From an uncultured Pelagibacteraceae bacterium (GTDB lineage Bacteria; Pseudomonadota; Alphaproteobacteria; Pelagibacterales; Pelagibacteraceae), in the NCBI GenBank assembly GCA_902570425.1, contig CACFYB010000006.1, forward strand, positions 1 through 43,660: DNA of 43,660 bases, in the 5' to 3' direction. Position numbers and translations under genes: made by a program. Below the pieces are notes generated by a model that saw only the letters and a list, made by a program, of their open reading frames with translations, ran no database searches and was not told the DNA's origin. Positions 2,762 to 10,920 of this stretch are shown here, one piece after another. Position 1 is the first letter of the stretch. Each line of letters opens with the position of its first letter.

Positions 2762-5428
2762 ATGGCTCAAAAAACATTAAATGAAATAAGAGAAACATTC
2801 TTAAAATATTTTGAAAAGAATGATCATAAGATTGTTGAGTCTAGTAATTTAGTACCAAATAATGATCCTACTTTAATGTTTGCAAATTCTGGAATGGTTC
2901 AGTTTAAAAATGTATTTACTGGCCTGGAAAAAAGAGACTATCAAAGAGCAACTACTTCACAAAAATGTGTAAGAGCAGGTGGAAAACATAATGATTTGGA
3001 AAATGTTGGATATACACCAAGACATCATACATTTTTTGAGATGTTAGGAAATTTTTCTTTTGGTGATTATTTTAAAGAGAAAGCAATATATTACGCTTGG
3101 GATTTAATTACTAAAGATTTTGGTTTAGATAAAAACAAACTTTATGTAACTATTTTTCATGAAGATGATGAAGCCTTTAATTTTTGGAGGAAAATTGCGG
3201 GTTTTAATGATGATCGTATTATAAGAATTTCAACATCTGATAACTTTTGGTCTATGGGCGAAACAGGACCATGTGGTCCATGTTCAGAAATTTTTTATGA
3301 TCATGGAGACCGTTTAAAAGGTGGTTTACCTGGTTCTAAAGATGAGGATGGAGATCGATTTATTGAAATTTGGAACTTAGTTTTTATGCAATACGAACAA
3401 GTTTCAAAAGATAAAAGAATTAATTTACCAAAGCCATCAGTAGATACAGGAATGGGATTAGAGAGAATTGCAGCTTTACTTCAAGGTACACATGATAATT
3501 ATGAAACAGATCATTTTCAAAAGCTAATTCAATCGACCTCAGAAATTGTCAAGAAAAAACCAAACCAAAACAATCTTTCAAGTTTTAGAGTCATTGCAGA
3601 TCATTTAAGAGCAAGTTCATTCTTAATTGCGGAAGGAGTTTTGCCATCTAACGAAGGAAGAGGCTATGTTCTTAGAAGAATTATGAGAAGAGGAATGAGA
3701 CATTCTCACTTATTAGGATCAAAGAATCCTGTTTTCTATAATTTGTTCGAAACATTAAAAAATGAAATGTCAGGAAACTATCCTGAATTAAATAGAGCAG
3801 AGTCATTGATTAAAGAAACTCTTAAAATGGAGGAGGAAAAATTTTTAATTCTTTTAGATAGGGGAATAAAAATACTAAATGATGAAATTTCTAAAATAGA
3901 TAAAGTTCTTCCTGGTGATGTTGCATTTAAATTATATGATACTTATGGGTTTCCACTAGATCTCACTGAAGACATATTAAGAAATAAATCTTTATCAATT
4001 GATACAAAAAAATTTCAATCGCTAATGCAAGAAAGTAGAGAGCTTGCAAAAAAAAATTGGAAAGGATCAGGAGATGCTGCAGTAGAAGATATTTGGTTTG
4101 GAATTAAAGATAAATTAGGTGCAACGGAATTTTTAGGGTATGAAACAAATCAGGCTGAGGGTGTAATTCTATCATTATTAAAAAATAATAAAGAAGTTAA
4201 AGACTTAAAATCAAATGATGAAGGGATGATTATAACCAATCAAACACCTTTTTATGGAGAGTCGGGCGGTCAAGTTGGTGATACTGGAGAAATTATTTCT
4301 GGAGATTTTAGATTTGAAGTAACAGATGTGCAAAAAAAATTAGGAGATCTTTTTGTTCATTATGGAAAAGTAATTAGCGGATCAATAAAATTGAATGACA
4401 GCGTTGAGATGAAAATAAACGAAACAAGAAGAAATGATACAAGGGCTTATCATTCAGCAACACATTTATTGCATGAGTCCTTGAGAAGAGTTTTGGGTAC
4501 ACACGTTACTCAAAAGGGATCTTTAGTTGAGCCAAGTAGATTAAGATTTGATTTTAGCCACATGAAACCTATTTCAGAAGACGAAATCAATAAAATTGAA
4601 AAATTTGTAAATTTAATGGTATCTAAAAAAACAGACGTTAAAACACGCTTAATGACTCCAGATGAAGCAGTTGAAAATGGTGCTTTAGCTTTATTTGGTG
4701 AAAAATATGGAGAAGAAGTAAGAGTTCTTTCAATGGGTGATGATGATGGAAAATATTTTTCTACTGAACTTTGTGGTGGAACTCACGTCAAAAACACAGG
4801 TGATATTGGTCAATTTAAAATTACTAGTCAGTCTTCCATTGCAGCAGGAATAAGGAGAATTGAAGCTTTAAGAGATAAACAATTAGAAGATTTTTTAAAG
4901 AATAAAGAAAAATTACTCAATCAATCATCTGAGAAAAATGAAGAGTTAATTAGGGATCTTACTAAACAAATAATTGGATTGGGAGGTAAACCAAACATAG
5001 ATCAATCAGATCAAAAATTGTTAACTAAAAATTTGACCAAACAATTAGAAAACCTGTCTGTTAAAGTTATATTAAATGATAAGACAAAAAATCAAATTAA
5101 GGATGAGGAAATTAAAGGTACAAAAATTAGATTTCAAAAAGTAGATGGTCTTCCCCCTAAAGAATTAAGAAAACTTGTAGATGATGGTAAAAAACAATTA
5201 GGTGAGGGAATTGTTGTGGTTTTTGCTAATAAAGATGAGAAAGTGGGTGTTGCGGTCGGCGTAACCAATAAATTGATTGATAAGTTCGATGCTGTTAAAT
5301 TTGTTAAATTAAGTTCTGAAATTATTGGTGGCCAAGGAGGTGGCGGTAGAAAAGATTTTGCTCAAGCTGGTGGACAAGATCCAAACAAGATCAATGAAGC
5401 TTTTGAAAAAATTAAATCCTTAATTTAA
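2762..5428 (+). CDS. alaS: alanyl-tRNA synthetase
   Basis: Class II synthetase that charges tRNA-Ala and edits Ser/Gly mischarging. The 888-residue length is standard. Order: catalytic domain (motif 2 region around [17 protein letters not shown], residues 87-103), tRNA-recognition helices, editing domain with the metal-binding residues H564/H568 (HSATH) and C671/H675 (CGGTH), and a C-terminal C-Ala domain with the Gly-rich [16 protein letters not shown] segment. Its stop (5426-5428) overlaps the stop of convergent icd (5420-5422) inside TTAATTTAA. The start ATG lies 49 bp past the recA terminator, so the gene has its own promoter in that gap, though I see no convincing hexamers there. Confidence 0.98.
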
Positions 5429-6511
5429 TTTTTTTTTCAATCTACCATCAATTTCATCTAAAAATTGGTTAGTAGTTAAGTATCTGCTAGATGGACCAAT
5501 AAGTATTGCGAGGTCTTTTGTCATTGCACCACTTTCAACACATTCGATACAAACTTCTTCTATTTTATTTGAAAATTTTATTAATTCCTCATTATTATCT
5601 AATTTACCTCTATGAGCCAAACCCCTAGTCCAAGCAAATATTGAGGCGATTGGATTTGTTGATGTTTCTTTTCCTTGTTGATGCATTCTATAATGTCTTG
5701 TTACAGTTCCATGAGCAGCTTCAGCTTCCATCACTTTTCCATCAGGTGTCAATAATGTACTGGTCATAAGCCCTAAAGATCCATAACCTTGAGCCATTGT
5801 ATCTGATTGTACATCACCGTCATAATTTTTACATGCCCAAATATATTTTCCACTCCATTTCATTGCGCATGCAACCATATCGTCTATTAATCTGTGCTCA
5901 TAAGTGATTTTATTTTCTTCAAACTTATTCTTAAACTCTTTGTCAAAAACCTCTTGAAATATGTCTTTAAATCTTCCATCGTATTTTTTTAAAATAGTAT
6001 TTTTAGTTGATAAATAAACTGGCCATTTTTTAATGAGTCCATAACTAAAGCAAGATCTTGCAAAGTCTTCAATTGATCTATCTAAGTTGTACATTGACAA
6101 CGCCACTCCAGGTCCAGTAAAATTAAATACCTCATATTTAATTTCTTTAATACCATCTTCAGATGTCCATTTAACTTCCATCTTACCTTTACCAGGAACT
6201 TTAAAATCTGTTGCTCTATACTGATCTCCAAAAGCATGTCTTCCTATGATTACAGGGTCAGTCCATGATGGCACAAGTTTTGGAATATTCGAACAAATTA
6301 TTGGCTCTCTAAAAACAGTTCCACCTATTATGTTTCTAATAGTTCCGTTTGGTGATCTCCACATTTTTTTCTGTTCTTGGCTTTTTTTGTAACTATTAAA
6401 AGCTGTACTGATTGATTTGGTTGTAAAATTTGCTATTTTTGAAAGACCGTTGCTATCTTTCTTTTTTGTTATTCTTTTTTTTTTCTTTTTTGTCATTTTT
6501 ATAAATTTCAT
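5420..6511 (-). CDS. icd: isocitrate dehydrogenase (NADP+) with a replaced N-terminus
   Basis: From MWRSPNGT onward (ATG codon 6362-6364) the protein is collinear with eukaryote-type (type II) NADP-isocitrate dehydrogenase: [74 protein letters not shown] and [16 protein letters not shown]. Substrate-loop, metal-binding Asp and NADP-loop residues in that part are present. The roughly 90 residues normally before it, carrying the GDEMTR and CATITPDE motifs (the latter contacts NADP and substrate), are absent. In their place are some 44-58 unrelated Lys/Ser-rich residues. Possible starts are TTG 6538, ATG 6511 or ATG 6496, none with a clear ribosome site. Activity is doubtful; the gene may be a deletion fusion, an assembly chimera or a pseudogene. 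It ends a long minus-strand run. Confidence 0.85.
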
Positions 6512-6606
6512 TTGATCAAATAATTTATTTTTTTTCAACCACTTGTGTTGGTAGTATTTGTTATTTAAGTGTTTATTTTGAGTTACAACTTACAAGTGTT
6601 TAATGA

Positions 6607-7944
6607 CTATTTAATGGGATAATCATTTGTTTTATTTTTGTGGTTATCTTCCTTATAATCATTGTTGTTACTGGGATTTTCTGACTCTTCTATAGGCTCT
6701 GTAGTTGGATTTAACTCTATACCCGCAGGTGTTATTGTTTGAGGCATAGCAACAAACTGAGAGTCTGGATTATCAATAGTTGGTCTAATCTTCATTCTAT
6801 AAACTCCAAAAATACCAATTATTGAGTGAAAGAAAAATAGAAATATAAAAAAACCATTAGGACCAACCAAATCCATAAATATTGAACATAAAAAGGGGCC
6901 GCTCATAGCTCCTAAGCCAAAAGCGAATTGTAATCCAGCTCCAGCTGCAACAAATTTATCTTTTGAAATGTAGTCATTTGTGTGAGCTAAAATAAGTGAA
7001 AACATTGGCAAACTACAAAAAGAAAAAAGAATAAAAAATATATAAAACCATGTTTTACTTGTTGCTAGACCATCGGGTAAATACATTTGTCGTGAGACTA
7101 TTATGGTTATTATTGAAAATATTGCTGCTCCAAAAGTAGAGTATATTATTACCTTTCGTCTATCATAAATATCTGAAAGTTTTCCAACTGGTAATTGAGC
7201 TATAGATCCTGAAATTGCAAGCAGGAAAGTTACAATCGAGATTTCTAAAATACTAAAATTCATTGAAGTTGCATAAACTGCTAACAATGTAAATAAAGCC
7301 GATTGTATAGTTCCATAAAATAAAGAACTTATCATGCCAAAAGGTGATGCTTCATAAAGATTTTTTAAATTCATAGCTTTTATTTTTTTAAAAGTTGGTG
7401 GTTTTTTTTTAGTCAATAAAATTGGAATTAATGCAGCAGAAGTGATTACTGAAATTAATATGAATGGTTGAAAATTTCTAGGACTACTAAAGTTAAGTAG
7501 GAACATGCCTATACCCATTGATCCGTATAAAACAACCATGTAAATTGATAAGACGCTGCCTCTATTTTTATTATTTGATCTGTCATTTAACCAACTTTCT
7601 GCCACTGTATAGATGCATACCATACTGATACCTGTTAAAACTCTTAGTAGAAACCAAATTAACGGATGTATCATTATAGAATGGACAAGAATTACTAGAG
7701 AAGCTAATGATGCAAAAGCTGCAAACACTCTAATGTGACCAACTCTAGAAATGACATTTGGTATAGTGGCAGCACCTATAAAATATCCAATAAAATATCC
7801 AGACATCATAAAACCAGTGGATGTTAAACTAAATTCTTCTTGAACAGCTCTTACGCCCAAAAGTGAACCTTGGAAGCCATAAGCCATCATAATACATCCC
7901 ATCCCTAAAAATAATGCCCAAGAATTTTTCAATACTTTATTCAT
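6607..7944 (-). CDS. MFS transporter, YcaD-like
   Basis: Inner-membrane major facilitator of unknown substrate. The 445-residue protein has about twelve hydrophobic segments, an MFS loop motif (GKLSDIYDRRKVI) between helices of the second half, and a VAESWLND segment in the first half, which is typical of the YcaD-like subgroup. A hydrophilic, Pro/Asn/Glu-rich tail of about 60 residues follows the last helix and is probably cytoplasmic. It lies 57 bp after the EamA transporter gene on the same strand and 95 bp before the nearest ATG of icd. Nothing around it identifies the substrate. Confidence 0.85.
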   Translation of the reverse strand: MNKVLKNSWALFLGMGCIMMAYGFQGSLLGVRAVQEEFSLTSTGFMMSGYFIGYFIGAATIPNVISRVGHIRVFAAFASLASLVILVHSIMIHPLIWFLLRVLTGISMVCIYTVAESWLNDRSNNKNRGSVLSIYMVVLYGSMGIGMFLLNFSSPRNFQPFILISVITSAALIPILLTKKKPPTFKKIKAMNLKNLYEASPFGMISSLFYGTIQSALFTLLAVYATSMNFSILEISIVTFLLAISGSIAQLPVGKLSDIYDRRKVIIYSTFGAAIFSIITIIVSRQMYLPDGLATSKTWFYIFFILFSFCSLPMFSLILAHTNDYISKDKFVAAGAGLQFAFGLGAMSGPFLCSIFMDLVGPNGFFIFLFFFHSIIGIFGVYRMKIRPTIDNPDSQFVAMPQTITPAGIELNPTTEPIEESENPSNNNDYKEDNHKNKTNDYPIK

Positions 7945-8001: not shown

Positions 8002-8862
8002 CTAAGATTTTTTAAGTTTTAGGAAAGAGTGAATTGCGATAGTGGTAATAATGATGACTCCCCCTTGAAGAGTTTCTATACTTGGTTGCTCTTTTATCAC
8101 CAACCAAACCCAAATAGGACCTATTATAGTTTCTAAAAGAAAAAATAAATTAACTTCAGCAGCAGGTATAAATCTTGGAGCTATTGTGACTAAAACAAAA
8201 GGTATTGCTACACAAAGAATGCACATTAAGGGCACTATAATAATATCTTTTTTTAATAGTACAAAACTTTCGACAAAAATTATAGCAAAGGTTGCAACTA
8301 AAAGTTTACCAACAACAGCAGCAGGTACTAAATTTTTTGATTTTGCTGATCTTATTGTAACAGCTCCAATAGCTAAACCAAGCGCAGTTATAAATCCTAA
8401 AATATCTCCATAAAAATTTCCAACTTTTAAAGAGTCGAAAAAAATATAGATAACTGATAAAAAAGTAACAATTATAGATATCAATGTTTTTTTATCTGGA
8501 GGTTCTTTCAAAAAAAAAGCACTAAGAATTGCTGATAACATTGGTGCTGTAGCAATCATTAAAAGAGTATTAGCTACATTAGTATTTTGAATAGAGACAA
8601 CAAAAGTAATGTTAGTTATACTAAATGTAACAATATAGATAATACCGTGATAACCGCTTGTGAAGAGTAATTTAAAAAAGTTTAATCTATAGATTAATAA
8701 CATTCCAATAAAAACTGTAATAAAGGGAATTAGTCCTCTATAAAAAACTAAACCCCAAGTATCAATATTCGACAATCTGATAAAAAGAGAATCTGGTGTA
8801 ATGAACATTACGGCTACAAAAGCCATTAATGAACCTTTTTGCTGATCTGTTAAATTACTCAT
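8002..8862 (-). CDS. EamA/DMT family membrane transporter
   Basis: Drug/metabolite transporter superfamily permease, 286 residues, with ten predicted membrane helices arranged as two EamA repeats (first half ending near AFFLKEPPDKKT, second near WVWLVIKEQPS). Members export or import small metabolites such as amino acids; the substrate cannot be read from sequence. It sits 18 bp downstream of the HD-domain gene and may be co-transcribed with purF. The short basic C-terminus is normal for the family. Confidence 0.88.
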   Translation of the reverse strand: MSNLTDQQKGSLMAFVAVMFITPDSLFIRLSNIDTWGLVFYRGLIPFITVFIGMLLIYRLNFFKLLFTSGYHGIIYIVTFSITNITFVVSIQNTNVANTLLMIATAPMLSAILSAFFLKEPPDKKTLISIIVTFLSVIYIFFDSLKVGNFYGDILGFITALGLAIGAVTIRSAKSKNLVPAAVVGKLLVATFAIIFVESFVLLKKDIIIVPLMCILCVAIPFVLVTIAPRFIPAAEVNLFFLLETIIGPIWVWLVIKEQPSIETLQGGVIIITTIAIHSFLKLKKS

Positions 8863-8880
8863 AATATTTTGTAAAAATAT

Positions 8881-9438
8881 TTATAGATGAGAGTAGGGTT
8901 TTCTAGAAAATATTCTTTTTACCATAGGTTTAAAGTCTTCAAGAGTTAAGCTTTTAAAATCTGGATCAAATGATGCCTGATCCCATTTTTCACAAAAGTT
9001 TACAGCATCATTATAATATTTATGATCTTTATACTTATCTCTTTGATTCCTATTTTTTCCTAAGTGGTGAGCAAAATAATACATTTGAAATTCTCCGTGT
9101 TTTTGTATTATCCAATGTGTTTTTTCACTGACGTACGGTTTTAAAATTGCCGCTGCATATTCAGAATGATTTAAAGGTGCATGTTCATCTCCTATATCAT
9201 GCAATAGAGCCGCAACTATCAGCTCCTCACTTGCATTATCATTTAAAGCTCGCGTAGCAGTTTGTAAAGAATGCTCTAATCTAGAAATCTTGTAACCTTC
9301 CAAGGTAGATGTGAGATTTTTCATAAAATTCAAAATTCTATCTGCAGTATTATTTATGTATTCTTTTTCATATTCATCCAATAAAATATATTCTTCTTTG
9401 GTACCTTCTTTCATTTCAGTAAATTTTACTTTTTTCAT
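8881..9438 (-). CDS. HD-domain protein with PhnZ/MIOX-type metal ligands
   Basis: A 185-residue HD-superfamily protein. Visible ligand pattern: H56 (LEHSLQ), H80-D81 (LLHDIGDEHAP), H91 (NHSEYAA), H114 (IQKHGEFQ) and D153 (EKWDQASFDP). The H-HD-H-H-D set with about 24 residues between the first two His matches the mixed-valent diiron oxygenases PhnZ, TmpB and myo-inositol oxygenase better than ordinary HD phosphohydrolases, which usually need fewer ligands. Assignment as an oxygenase is inference; automated annotation would probably say HD domain protein. Its ATG directly abuts the purF stop with no gap, so the two are translationally coupled. The substrate is unknown; no phosphonate or inositol gene is nearby. 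Confidence 0.8.
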   Translation of the reverse strand: MKKVKFTEMKEGTKEEYILLDEYEKEYINNTADRILNFMKNLTSTLEGYKISRLEHSLQTATRALNDNASEELIVAALLHDIGDEHAPLNHSEYAAAILKPYVSEKTHWIIQKHGEFQMYYFAHHLGKNRNQRDKYKDHKYYNDAVNFCEKWDQASFDPDFKSLTLEDFKPMVKRIFSRKPYSHL

Positions 9439-10920
9439 TTAATTATTTGATGCAGTACTTAATAACGACAGTTGAGTAATCTTATTATCACCAAGTTCAT
9501 CAATTGGTTTTACGGGATAATCTCCAGTAAAATAATGATCAGTTAATTGTGGATAGCTCTCATTTCTACCTTCAAAACCGATGGCCTTATACATACCATT
9601 TATTGATAAAAATTTTAAAGATTTTGCTCCAATATAATTACAAATTTCATCATTTGTTTTATTAGCTGCTAACAATTCTTTTTTCGTAGGTGTATCTACA
9701 CCATAGAAATCTGGATATTTAATTTCAGGACAAGCAATTTTTACATGAACTTCTTTAGCACCTGCATCATATAACATTTTAACTATCTTATGAGAAGTAG
9801 TGCCTCTTACTAATGAGTCATCTATTAGAATTATCTTTTTATCTTTAATAGTGAATTTATTTGCATTAAGTTTTAATTTAACACCTAAACTTCTTATTTT
9901 TTGACTGGGTTCTATAAAAGTTCTACCAACATAATGATTTCTTACGAGGCCTAATTCGAAATTTTTTTTAAGATATTGAGCAAAACCCAGAGCCGCTGCA
10001 TTTCCTGAGTCTGGGACAGGAACAATCATATCTGCATCTGTATCGTTTTCTTTGGCAAGCTCAATACCTAAGTTTTTTCTATATTCATATGCTGTTTTAT
10101 CTTTTAAAATACTATCTGGCCTAGCGAAATAAATATATTCAAATACACAAGGTCTTATTTTTTTCGGAGGAAAGGGCTTAATGCTTTTAAGTTCATCTTT
10201 TTCTATAAAAACTATCTCTCCATTATCAACATCTCTTATATATTTTGCTCCAATTATATCTAATGCACATGTTTCAGATGCTAGCACGTAACTATTTTTT
10301 AATTTTCCAATCACAAGTGGTCTAATACCATAAGGATCTCTTACTCCAATTAGAGAAGTTTGAGTCAACATTACTAACGCATATCCTCCTTGTATTTGAA
10401 ATATAGCATCAATTATTTTATCAATTGTTTTGACTCTTTTCGATTTTGCAATTAATTGAACTATTGTTTCAGTATCTGAGGTAGTATAAAAAATTGCTCC
10501 TTCCTCAACTAATTTTTTTCTTAATGAAATAGAATTTGTTAAATTTCCATTATGCGCAACACCAATTCCACCTGCATTAGTGTCAGCAAAAAAAGGTTGA
10601 ATGTTTCTAAGGGTATTTTCTCCAGTGGTACTATACCTGTTATGGCCAATTGCATAATCACCTTTTAGATTATTAAGAATTTTTTCTTTATTGAAATTGT
10701 CACCAACTAATCCAAATCTTTTTTCAGAATAATATTTTTTTCCATCAAATGTTACAATTCCACACCCTTCCTGACCTCTATGTTGCAACGCGTGCAGTCC
10801 TAAGGCAGTAAGAGCAGAAGCATCCTTGGCTTTGCTTATGCCAAAAACCCCACACTCCTCTTTGAGCTTGGGGTTATAATTGCTCAATTTTTTCTTTAGA
10901 TTCTTGATATTTTTTTTCAT
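9439..10920 (-). CDS. purF: amidophosphoribosyltransferase
   Basis: Catalyses the first committed step of purine synthesis, PRPP + Gln to phosphoribosylamine. The 493-residue protein has an N-terminal Ntn-hydrolase glutaminase domain beginning at C23 (CGVFG); residues 1-22 form a propeptide that must be removed. HALQHRGQEG, GHNRYSTTG and HNGNLTN follow, then a phosphoribosyltransferase domain with the PRPP loop IILIDDSLVRGTTS. Its ATG lies inside the 3' end of cvpA (47-base overlap), recalling the cvpA-purF pairing of other bacteria. Downstream, the HD-domain gene abuts its stop. purM and purN lie elsewhere in the window (28384-29974). Confidence 0.97.
   Translation of the reverse strand: MKKNIKNLKKKLSNYNPKLKEECGVFGISKAKDASALTALGLHALQHRGQEGCGIVTFDGKKYYSEKRFGLVGDNFNKEKILNNLKGDYAIGHNRYSTTGENTLRNIQPFFADTNAGGIGVAHNGNLTNSISLRKKLVEEGAIFYTTSDTETIVQLIAKSKRVKTIDKIIDAIFQIQGGYALVMLTQTSLIGVRDPYGIRPLVIGKLKNSYVLASETCALDIIGAKYIRDVDNGEIVFIEKDELKSIKPFPPKKIRPCVFEYIYFARPDSILKDKTAYEYRKNLGIELAKENDTDADMIVPVPDSGNAAALGFAQYLKKNFELGLVRNHYVGRTFIEPSQKIRSLGVKLKLNANKFTIKDKKIILIDDSLVRGTTSHKIVKMLYDAGAKEVHVKIACPEIKYPDFYGVDTPTKKELLAANKTNDEICNYIGAKSLKFLSINGMYKAIGFEGRNESYPQLTDHYFTGDYPVKPIDELGDNKITQLSLLSTASNN

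Follow-up and report, generated by a model that had tools for sequence, protein, structure and literature searches.

We propose that P0001, an HD-domain protein encoded in the 43,660-nt window (the whole stretch of SAR11 DNA analyzed here), is a predicted mixed-valent diiron oxygenase of an unnamed family lying beside PhnZ and TmpB. Oxygenase chemistry is likely. With moderate confidence, we further propose that P0001 is the putative second enzyme of a two-step oxidation like that of TmpA/TmpB but directed at a non-phosphonate onium osmolyte, which would be of the quaternary-ammonium (or sulfonium) class. The first enzyme would be P0002, a TauD-type, TmpA/BBOX-like Fe/2-oxoglutarate hydroxylase encoded elsewhere in the same genome, and together HD protein and hydroxylase probably form a previously undescribed two-step pathway.

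Of two readings tried, only the minus strand (9438..8881) gives an open P0001 frame, in a genome (G000) of 922 kb assembled in 23 contigs and 80% complete; the earlier note on this DNA named no strand. As that note had recorded, the ATG of the HD gene (9438-9436) abuts the purF stop codon (9441-9439) with no intervening base, and an EamA permease gene follows, with an MFS gene next on the same strand (Table 1). Downstream of the MFS gene, the match of an open reading frame at 5420-6538 to isocitrate dehydrogenase (PF00180, 166 bits) does not begin until position 76 of the 348-position profile; it is preceded by a Lys-rich segment with a TTG start, and the N-terminal part is missing or frame-shifted. 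An Rfam scan of window positions 1-43660 returned no family at gathering score.

Table 1. Positions in the window of the P0001 gene, selected codons, and adjacent genes
Feature	Position	Strand	Basis
HD-domain protein P0001, candidate mixed-valent diiron oxygenase, 185 aa	8881..9438	-	
Codon of ligand H56 (PhnZ H34)	9271..9273	-	PhnZ alignment; invariant in family
Codons of ligands H80-D81 (PhnZ H58-D59)	9196..9201	-	PhnZ alignment; invariant in family
Codon of ligand H91	9166..9168	-	Invariant; aligned with Phn-type and MIOX rows
Codon of ligand H114	9097..9099	-	Invariant; aligned with Phn-type and MIOX rows
Codon of Q118	9085..9087	-	Invariant in family rows; Lys in Phn-type rows
Codon of ligand D153 (PhnZ D161)	8980..8982	-	PhnZ alignment; invariant in family
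purF, amidophosphoribosyltransferase, upstream of HD, 0-nt gap	9439..10920	-	TIGR01134, 487 bits
EamA/DMT-type transporter, downstream of HD	8002..8862	-	PF00892
MFS transporter (PRK03633-like), downstream of HD	6607..7944	-	

The candidate metal ligands of P0001 are H56, H80-D81, H91, H114, and D153, with the same 24-residue spacing from H56 to H80 as from H34 to H58 in PhnZ. This reading, made earlier from the window alone, holds across the family: once two Phn-type rows (L221 and L223) had been set aside, the six ligands were identical in all 162 rows (83/83 from SAR11, window included, and 79/79 from other bacteria), as were F117 and Q118, and no ligand is missing from P0001 or its family. 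Counted by eye, D81 and the ligand after it are 10 residues apart in P0001, versus 21 in the Phn-type homolog L028. The earlier note went too far in taking the six-ligand set to define HD oxygenases, because there are dinuclear HD hydrolases such as YqeK, as the available part of a review describes (PMC8177086). Among the matches listed (557 confirmed), the 80 named relatives that were kept are 72-85% identical and all bear the name Pelagibacteraceae, Pelagibacterales, or Pelagibacter (SAR11), and we assign the window to SAR11 on this ground. A scan of viral contigs for the HD family gave 124 pattern matches and zero relatives, and a search of a phage collection gave one weak match only (28%).

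Profile and structure searches place P0001 within the HD superfamily and nearest to the phosphonate oxygenases. It matches Pfam HD (PF01966) at 28.5 bits (cut-off, 22) but falls below the curated cut-offs of Phn-HD (TIGR03276; 41.2/214.6 bits), TmpB (NF049941; 37.2/300), and PhnZ1 (NF052439; 33.2/300); MIOX (PF05153) was absent among its Pfam matches at E ≤ 1. The best PDB sequence match was PhnZ (E = 4.9e-5), followed by TmpB (2.3e-3). An AlphaFold2 model built with 40 sequences (mean pLDDT 88.3, lowest near residues 121-130) retrieved ten chains by Foldseek at E ≤ 0.001, all of them PhnZ or TmpB, with 20-22% identity to PhnZ. VIA-align Z scores were 16.5 for PhnZ (2.8 Å over 153), 15.8 for TmpB, and 10.3 and 9.4 for MIOX (15-16% identity); all other entries among the 50 rows listed, hydrolase folds included, had Z ≤ 7.2. 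The listed hydrolases thus rank below all three oxygenases, and by fold P0001 does not fall within the ordinary HD phosphohydrolases, a placement that the earlier note had proposed to check. Because helical models can reach Z of about 13 without a true relative, the PhnZ/TmpB match is solid and the MIOX match only supportive. In an IQ-TREE analysis whose outgroup rows were one MIOX sequence and two each of the dGTPase-like and Rel/Spo-like kinds, the Phn-type rows formed one clade (95/99), and the MIOX and dGTPase-like rows attached inside the family by very long branches; a single clade of family plus Phn-type rows was absent from the best, long-branched tree and was not rejected (AU p = 0.41).

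Residues of the substrate site set P0001 apart from PhnZ and TmpB. We take Lys108 and Arg158 of PhnZ to be its phosphonate contacts. The corresponding Lys118 and Arg150 are present in 5/5 Phn-type rows, whereas P0001 has Q118 and E150; in the alignment with Phn-type rows, the family has Gln118 in 26/26 rows and Arg150 in 0/26. A second element, the YxxE loop of PhnZ and TmpB, in which Tyr caps Fe2 and Glu contacts the amino group of the substrate according to the accessible text of the same review (PMC8177086), is absent from P0001, with L46 and Y49 at those positions, versus a Glu in 5/5 Phn-type rows and a Tyr in four (Phe in one). Of the two kinds of cleavage that the earlier note gave for known HD oxygenases, C-P and C-C, the C-P option is disfavored for P0001, since the presumed phosphonate-binding Lys/Arg pair is Gln/Glu and YxxE is absent. 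One family member with a PhyH-type partner (L177; G287:C83) has a YxxE-like loop, YYGE, yet Gln118, and is possibly intermediate between the Phn-type rows and the P0001 family.

Gene neighborhoods were compared at 166 loci, with genes called by a procedure that fixed the HD frame and scored G+C by codon position; HD was recovered in 163 (its frame was not found at L222, L224, and L225), and the neighbor tables rest on a crude gene caller, with some "genes" in G+C-rich loci surely wrong. Directly upstream of HD in the 82 SAR11 loci stood purF (75 loci), a TauD-type gene (6), or a contig edge (1; L065), and in all 73 loci measured among the 75 with purF the gap was -1 to +5 nt. Homologs of the window's EamA (cluster 2) and MFS genes follow HD, on the same strand, in 66/82 and 68/82 loci, respectively. 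Because both are also present where TauD is upstream (L060, L069, L232, L233), this block goes with HD rather than with purF; an MFS gene lies near a TauD-HD pair outside SAR11 too (L153). Beside the six SAR11 TauD-HD pairs are betaine-transporter-like genes in L083, L099, and L108 (clusters 31 and 39, named ProX- and ProW-like from L099 and L108, which are the same DNA as G358 and G329, respectively) and genes of the aldehyde dehydrogenase (ALDH), hydroxyacid dehydrogenase, and EamA types in L060, L069, and L092. The interval between HD and EamA varies among SAR11 lineages (L058:6589-8797, L102:6568-8514, L089:6555-7622, window 8862-8881) and looks like a swap site, holding glutamate-cysteine ligase and glutathione synthetase (clusters 8 and 9), a DsbH-type thioredoxin protein (cluster 12), homocysteine S-methyltransferase (cluster 18), or, in the window, nothing.

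In the close relatives checked outside the window's genus, HD stands behind TauD. In the sister family, 13 of the 16 genomes searched carry HD, with TauD directly upstream in 13/13, and the three genomes without HD have no close TauD either (best, 36% identity); in other genera of the window's own family, TauD is directly upstream in 4/4 HD-bearing genomes (G329, G330, G334, G358). Because these 17 relatives carry TauD directly upstream instead of purF, we set purF aside as a functional partner; it is probably a bystander of a gene move, which bears out the earlier caution that the purine link may only be operonic. The sister-family locus is, by its predicted gene content, an osmolyte catabolism locus: it holds acetoacetyl-CoA-ligase, betaine-aldehyde-dehydrogenase-like, BKACE-like, L-carnitine-dehydrogenase-like, DddP, and homocysteine-methyltransferase-type genes (the "-like" assignments score below their cut-offs), together with a second BBOX-like gene with an N-terminal GBBH domain. 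A route from carnitine through 3-dehydrocarnitine to betaine, which this locus suggested, was considered and set aside, as no BKACE was found in the 80% complete assembly of the window genome.

Farther afield, the pairing is patchier. Among 79 non-SAR11 loci, chosen from a class search, the sister family (four loci), and plasmids, the same-strand gene at position -1 was TauD in nine (four from the sister family) and PhyH in three (assigned by Pfam for L174), and the remaining positions from -6 to +6 added four cases (one opposite-strand upstream TauD and three PhyH matches). The other 63 have no TauD or PhyH within six called genes of HD. Pairing with TauD or PhyH therefore characterizes the SAR11-type branch and some other branches rather than the family at large, which argues for other partners or substrates in the wider family. 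On a Pseudomonas aeruginosa plasmid (NZ_CP115240.1; L033:6872-12826), genes for TauD, HD, a choline-binding protein, choline dehydrogenase, and aldehyde dehydrogenase lie consecutively, preceded by a divergent LysR-type gene. Some alphaproteobacterial genomes carry two HD-family copies in tandem (L169, L171, L161).

Genes for HD and TauD also occur together when they are not adjacent. The family sample comprised 198 genomes (at least 85% complete, plus the window genome at 80%) and was scored at E < 1e-70 for HD and E < 1e-100 for TauD, thresholds picked after the match lists had been seen, with two weak HD matches (G398, G466) and 17 weak TauD matches counted as absent. HD was present in 124 genomes and TauD in 120 (both, 112; HD only, 12; TauD only, 8; neither, 66), giving a Fisher p of 9e-31 that ignores phylogeny and is not a true probability, because the genomes are incomplete and related. 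Inside the genus, where 120/137 sampled genomes carry HD, the corresponding counts were 108, 12, 8, and 9 (p = 1e-4, phylogeny again ignored). In a class sample of 289 genomes, HD (E < 1e-40) was found in 82 and TauD (E < 1e-70) in 11, 10 of which also had HD (p = 2e-5); with the SAR11 genus removed, 7/8 TauD genomes also held HD (p = 6e-4). One single-contig, 99% complete genome (G065) has TauD and lacks HD. Overall, we consider it likely that P0001 works paired with P0002.

P0002 lies unlinked to HD in the window genome (G000:C2:39495-40592) and shares 48-58% identity with the HD-linked TauDs from SAR11 loci; the gene adjoining it is 50-54% identical to a HisN-like gene that lies close to the TauD-HD pair of L060, L069, L232, and L233. 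This synteny suggests that the TauD-HD order is the older one, with HD relocated to its place behind purF in the window's genus, in which the two genes lie 69 kb apart in G215 and 59 kb apart in G355. P0002 aligns with TmpA (E = 1.7e-52) and human BBOX (2.4e-39), and its best NCBIfam match is TmpA (344 bits, below the cut-off of 400; BBOX, 269); TauDs adjoining HD likewise score best against TmpA and then gamma-butyrobetaine dioxygenase (tested for L069 and L232). At the positions aligned with Tyr177, Trp181, Tyr194, and Tyr366, which we take to be the trimethylammonium cage of BBOX, P0002 has Phe, Phe, Tyr, and Tyr. It shares the HTDNPYR motif with TmpA (a motif lacking in the TauD of L164, which is on the opposite strand to HD) and reads S-P-R-L-D where the TmpA row L223 has N-A-R; at this position, HD-linked TauDs mostly read S-x-R-L/V-D, with L233 (N-T-K-I-E) as an exception. 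From the cage positions, HTDNPYR, and the altered N-A-R segment, the substrate of P0002 likely has an onium head group and an acid end that probably differs from phosphonate. Because the sister-family locus has a separate BBOX-like gene, TauDs of the P0002 type need not be the carnitine-forming enzyme, and we therefore do not commit to a single substrate.

The available portion of the HD oxygenase review describes PhnZ, TmpB, and MIOX as binding substrate at Fe1 and O2 at Fe2 and returning to Fe(II)Fe(III) without a reductant (PMC8177086); by analogy, P0001 would act on the P0002 product, breaking the bond adjacent to its newly hydroxylated carbon. In the first step, P0002 would hold the onium substrate in its aromatic cage and hydroxylate one carbon. 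In the second, P0001 would bind the new hydroxyl at Fe1, and O2 at Fe2 would abstract the carbinol hydrogen, after which the neighboring bond would break (R-CH(OH)-X + O2 -> R-COOH + X-OH), as in PhnZ with X = phosphonate. In P0001, X would probably be a carbon group, because the presumed phosphonate-binding Lys and Arg are replaced; the reaction would then be an O2-dependent C-C cleavage yielding a shorter betaine or acid. A balanced candidate is carnitine + O2 -> glycine betaine + glycolate, and another would be 3-hydroxy-trimethyllysine -> gamma-butyrobetaine + glyoxylate + ammonia. We lean toward a non-phosphonate onium substrate, with each individually named compound improbable at best. 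More tentatively, we speculate that a widespread non-phosphonate HD family may break a C-C bond of hydroxylated onium osmolytes, needing neither reductant nor CoA, within TmpA/TmpB-like pairs (for example, gamma-butyrobetaine -> carnitine -> glycine betaine + glycolate).

An alternative hypothesis is that P0001 is a divergent TmpB or PhnZ whose reaction is still C-P bond cleavage, with a hydroxylated (trimethyl)aminoalkylphosphonate supplied by P0002 as the substrate. This would account for PhnZ and TmpB being nearest in both sequence and fold and for TmpA being the best NCBIfam match of P0002 (344 bits versus 269 for BBOX), with HTDNPYR in common. However, P0001 reaches only 41 and 37 bits against cut-offs of 214.6 and 300, has L46, Y49, Q118, and E150 where Phn-type rows have the YxxE Glu, Lys118, and Arg150, and belongs to a family that coexists with true TmpA and TmpB in one genome (G058); its partner also stays under the TmpA cut-off of 400, with S-P-R-L-D replacing N-A-R. 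We consider such a phosphonatase activity unlikely. A slightly larger, though still small, chance attaches to P0001 being an ordinary metal-dependent HD phosphohydrolase, acting for example on a nucleotide and tied to purine synthesis through purF, which is directly upstream in 75/82 SAR11 loci with near-zero gaps in 73/73 measured; dinuclear HD hydrolases do exist, as the accessible review text notes (PMC8177086). Against this, purF is not directly upstream in any of the 17 genomes with HD that were checked beyond the genus, the listed hydrolase folds rank below all three oxygenases, and the recurring neighbor elsewhere is an O2-using hydroxylase (12/79 loci). Of the earlier alternatives of oxygenase or phosphohydrolase, the oxygenase is thus the one strengthened, by a fold nearest to PhnZ, TmpB, and MIOX and by a hydroxylase partner in part of the family, and the phosphohydrolase keeps the small chance just given.

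Least probable, to the point of being a long shot, is a MIOX-like enzyme cleaving a polyol or sugar, with the TauD link in SAR11 reflecting a separate process. The fold match to MIOX (Z of 10.3) is in keeping with such an activity, as are a homolog on a Phaeobacter plasmid annotated "inositol oxygenase family protein" and the genes of cluster 29 directly upstream of HD in five non-SAR11 loci, annotated as class II aldolase in L034. Yet the Pfam MIOX match is absent at E ≤ 1, the fold match is weaker than those to PhnZ and TmpB, and the transporters and dehydrogenases encoded around SAR11-type pairs suggest betaines.

If the proposed role of P0001 is correct, HD oxygenase chemistry would extend beyond C-P bonds and inositol, and SAR11, whose members are described as the most abundant surface-ocean heterotrophs in the available part of one report (PMC12636525), would have an extra oxidative route for betaine-like osmolytes. 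Published estimates of ocean phnZ abundance range from under 0.01% to about 20% of bacteria, as given in the accessible part of a review (PMC10574752). Loose phnZ counts could be too high if they pick up a weakly similar SAR11 relative, which may bear on this dispute. The P0002/P0001 pair makes the question directly testable with two proteins. A literature search by title and the start of abstracts, with subscription journals mostly outside its reach, returned no paper describing this HD family or a pairing of a non-phosphonate HD oxygenase with a betaine-type hydroxylase. In the available text of one review the HD oxygenases named are MIOX, PhnZ, and TmpB (PMC8177086), and the accessible part of a later review extends this list by PhnZ variants, every one of them acting on phosphonates (PMC10574752).

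Of the known systems, TmpA/TmpB (2-trimethylaminoethylphosphonate hydroxylase and oxygenase of Leisingera) likewise consists of one hydroxylase gene and one HD-protein gene. TmpA is the best match of P0002, and the fold and six ligands of P0001 match TmpB, but both proteins lie below the equivalog cut-offs, and P0001 lacks the YxxE gate and the Lys/Arg pair; its HD-to-His loop is also shorter, by 11 residues as counted by eye, than that of a Phn-type homolog. With PhnY*/PhnZ, which oxidizes 2-aminoethylphosphonate, P0001 shares the HD oxygenase fold (Z = 16.5) and the H-24-HD spacing, and three members of its family pair, like PhnZ, with a PhyH-type oxygenase instead of TauD; unlike in PhnZ, the phosphonate-site residues are changed. 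MIOX, which cleaves C-C bonds according to the available review text (PMC8177086), aligns over the six-ligand set (fold Z = 10.3), yet P0001 is only 15-16% identical to it and has no Pfam MIOX match at E ≤ 1. An Arctic SAR11 island carries two BBOX genes with CDH, BKACE, and ALDH genes, and its account, in the part available, mentions neither an HD gene nor a role for one (PMC12421898); as in that island, ALDH, hydroxyacid dehydrogenase, and BBOX-like genes lie near some TauD-HD pairs (L060, L069, L232). Set beside these systems, the P0001 family belongs to the same superfamily and would share their general chemistry, but represents a new branch, probably with a new class of substrate.
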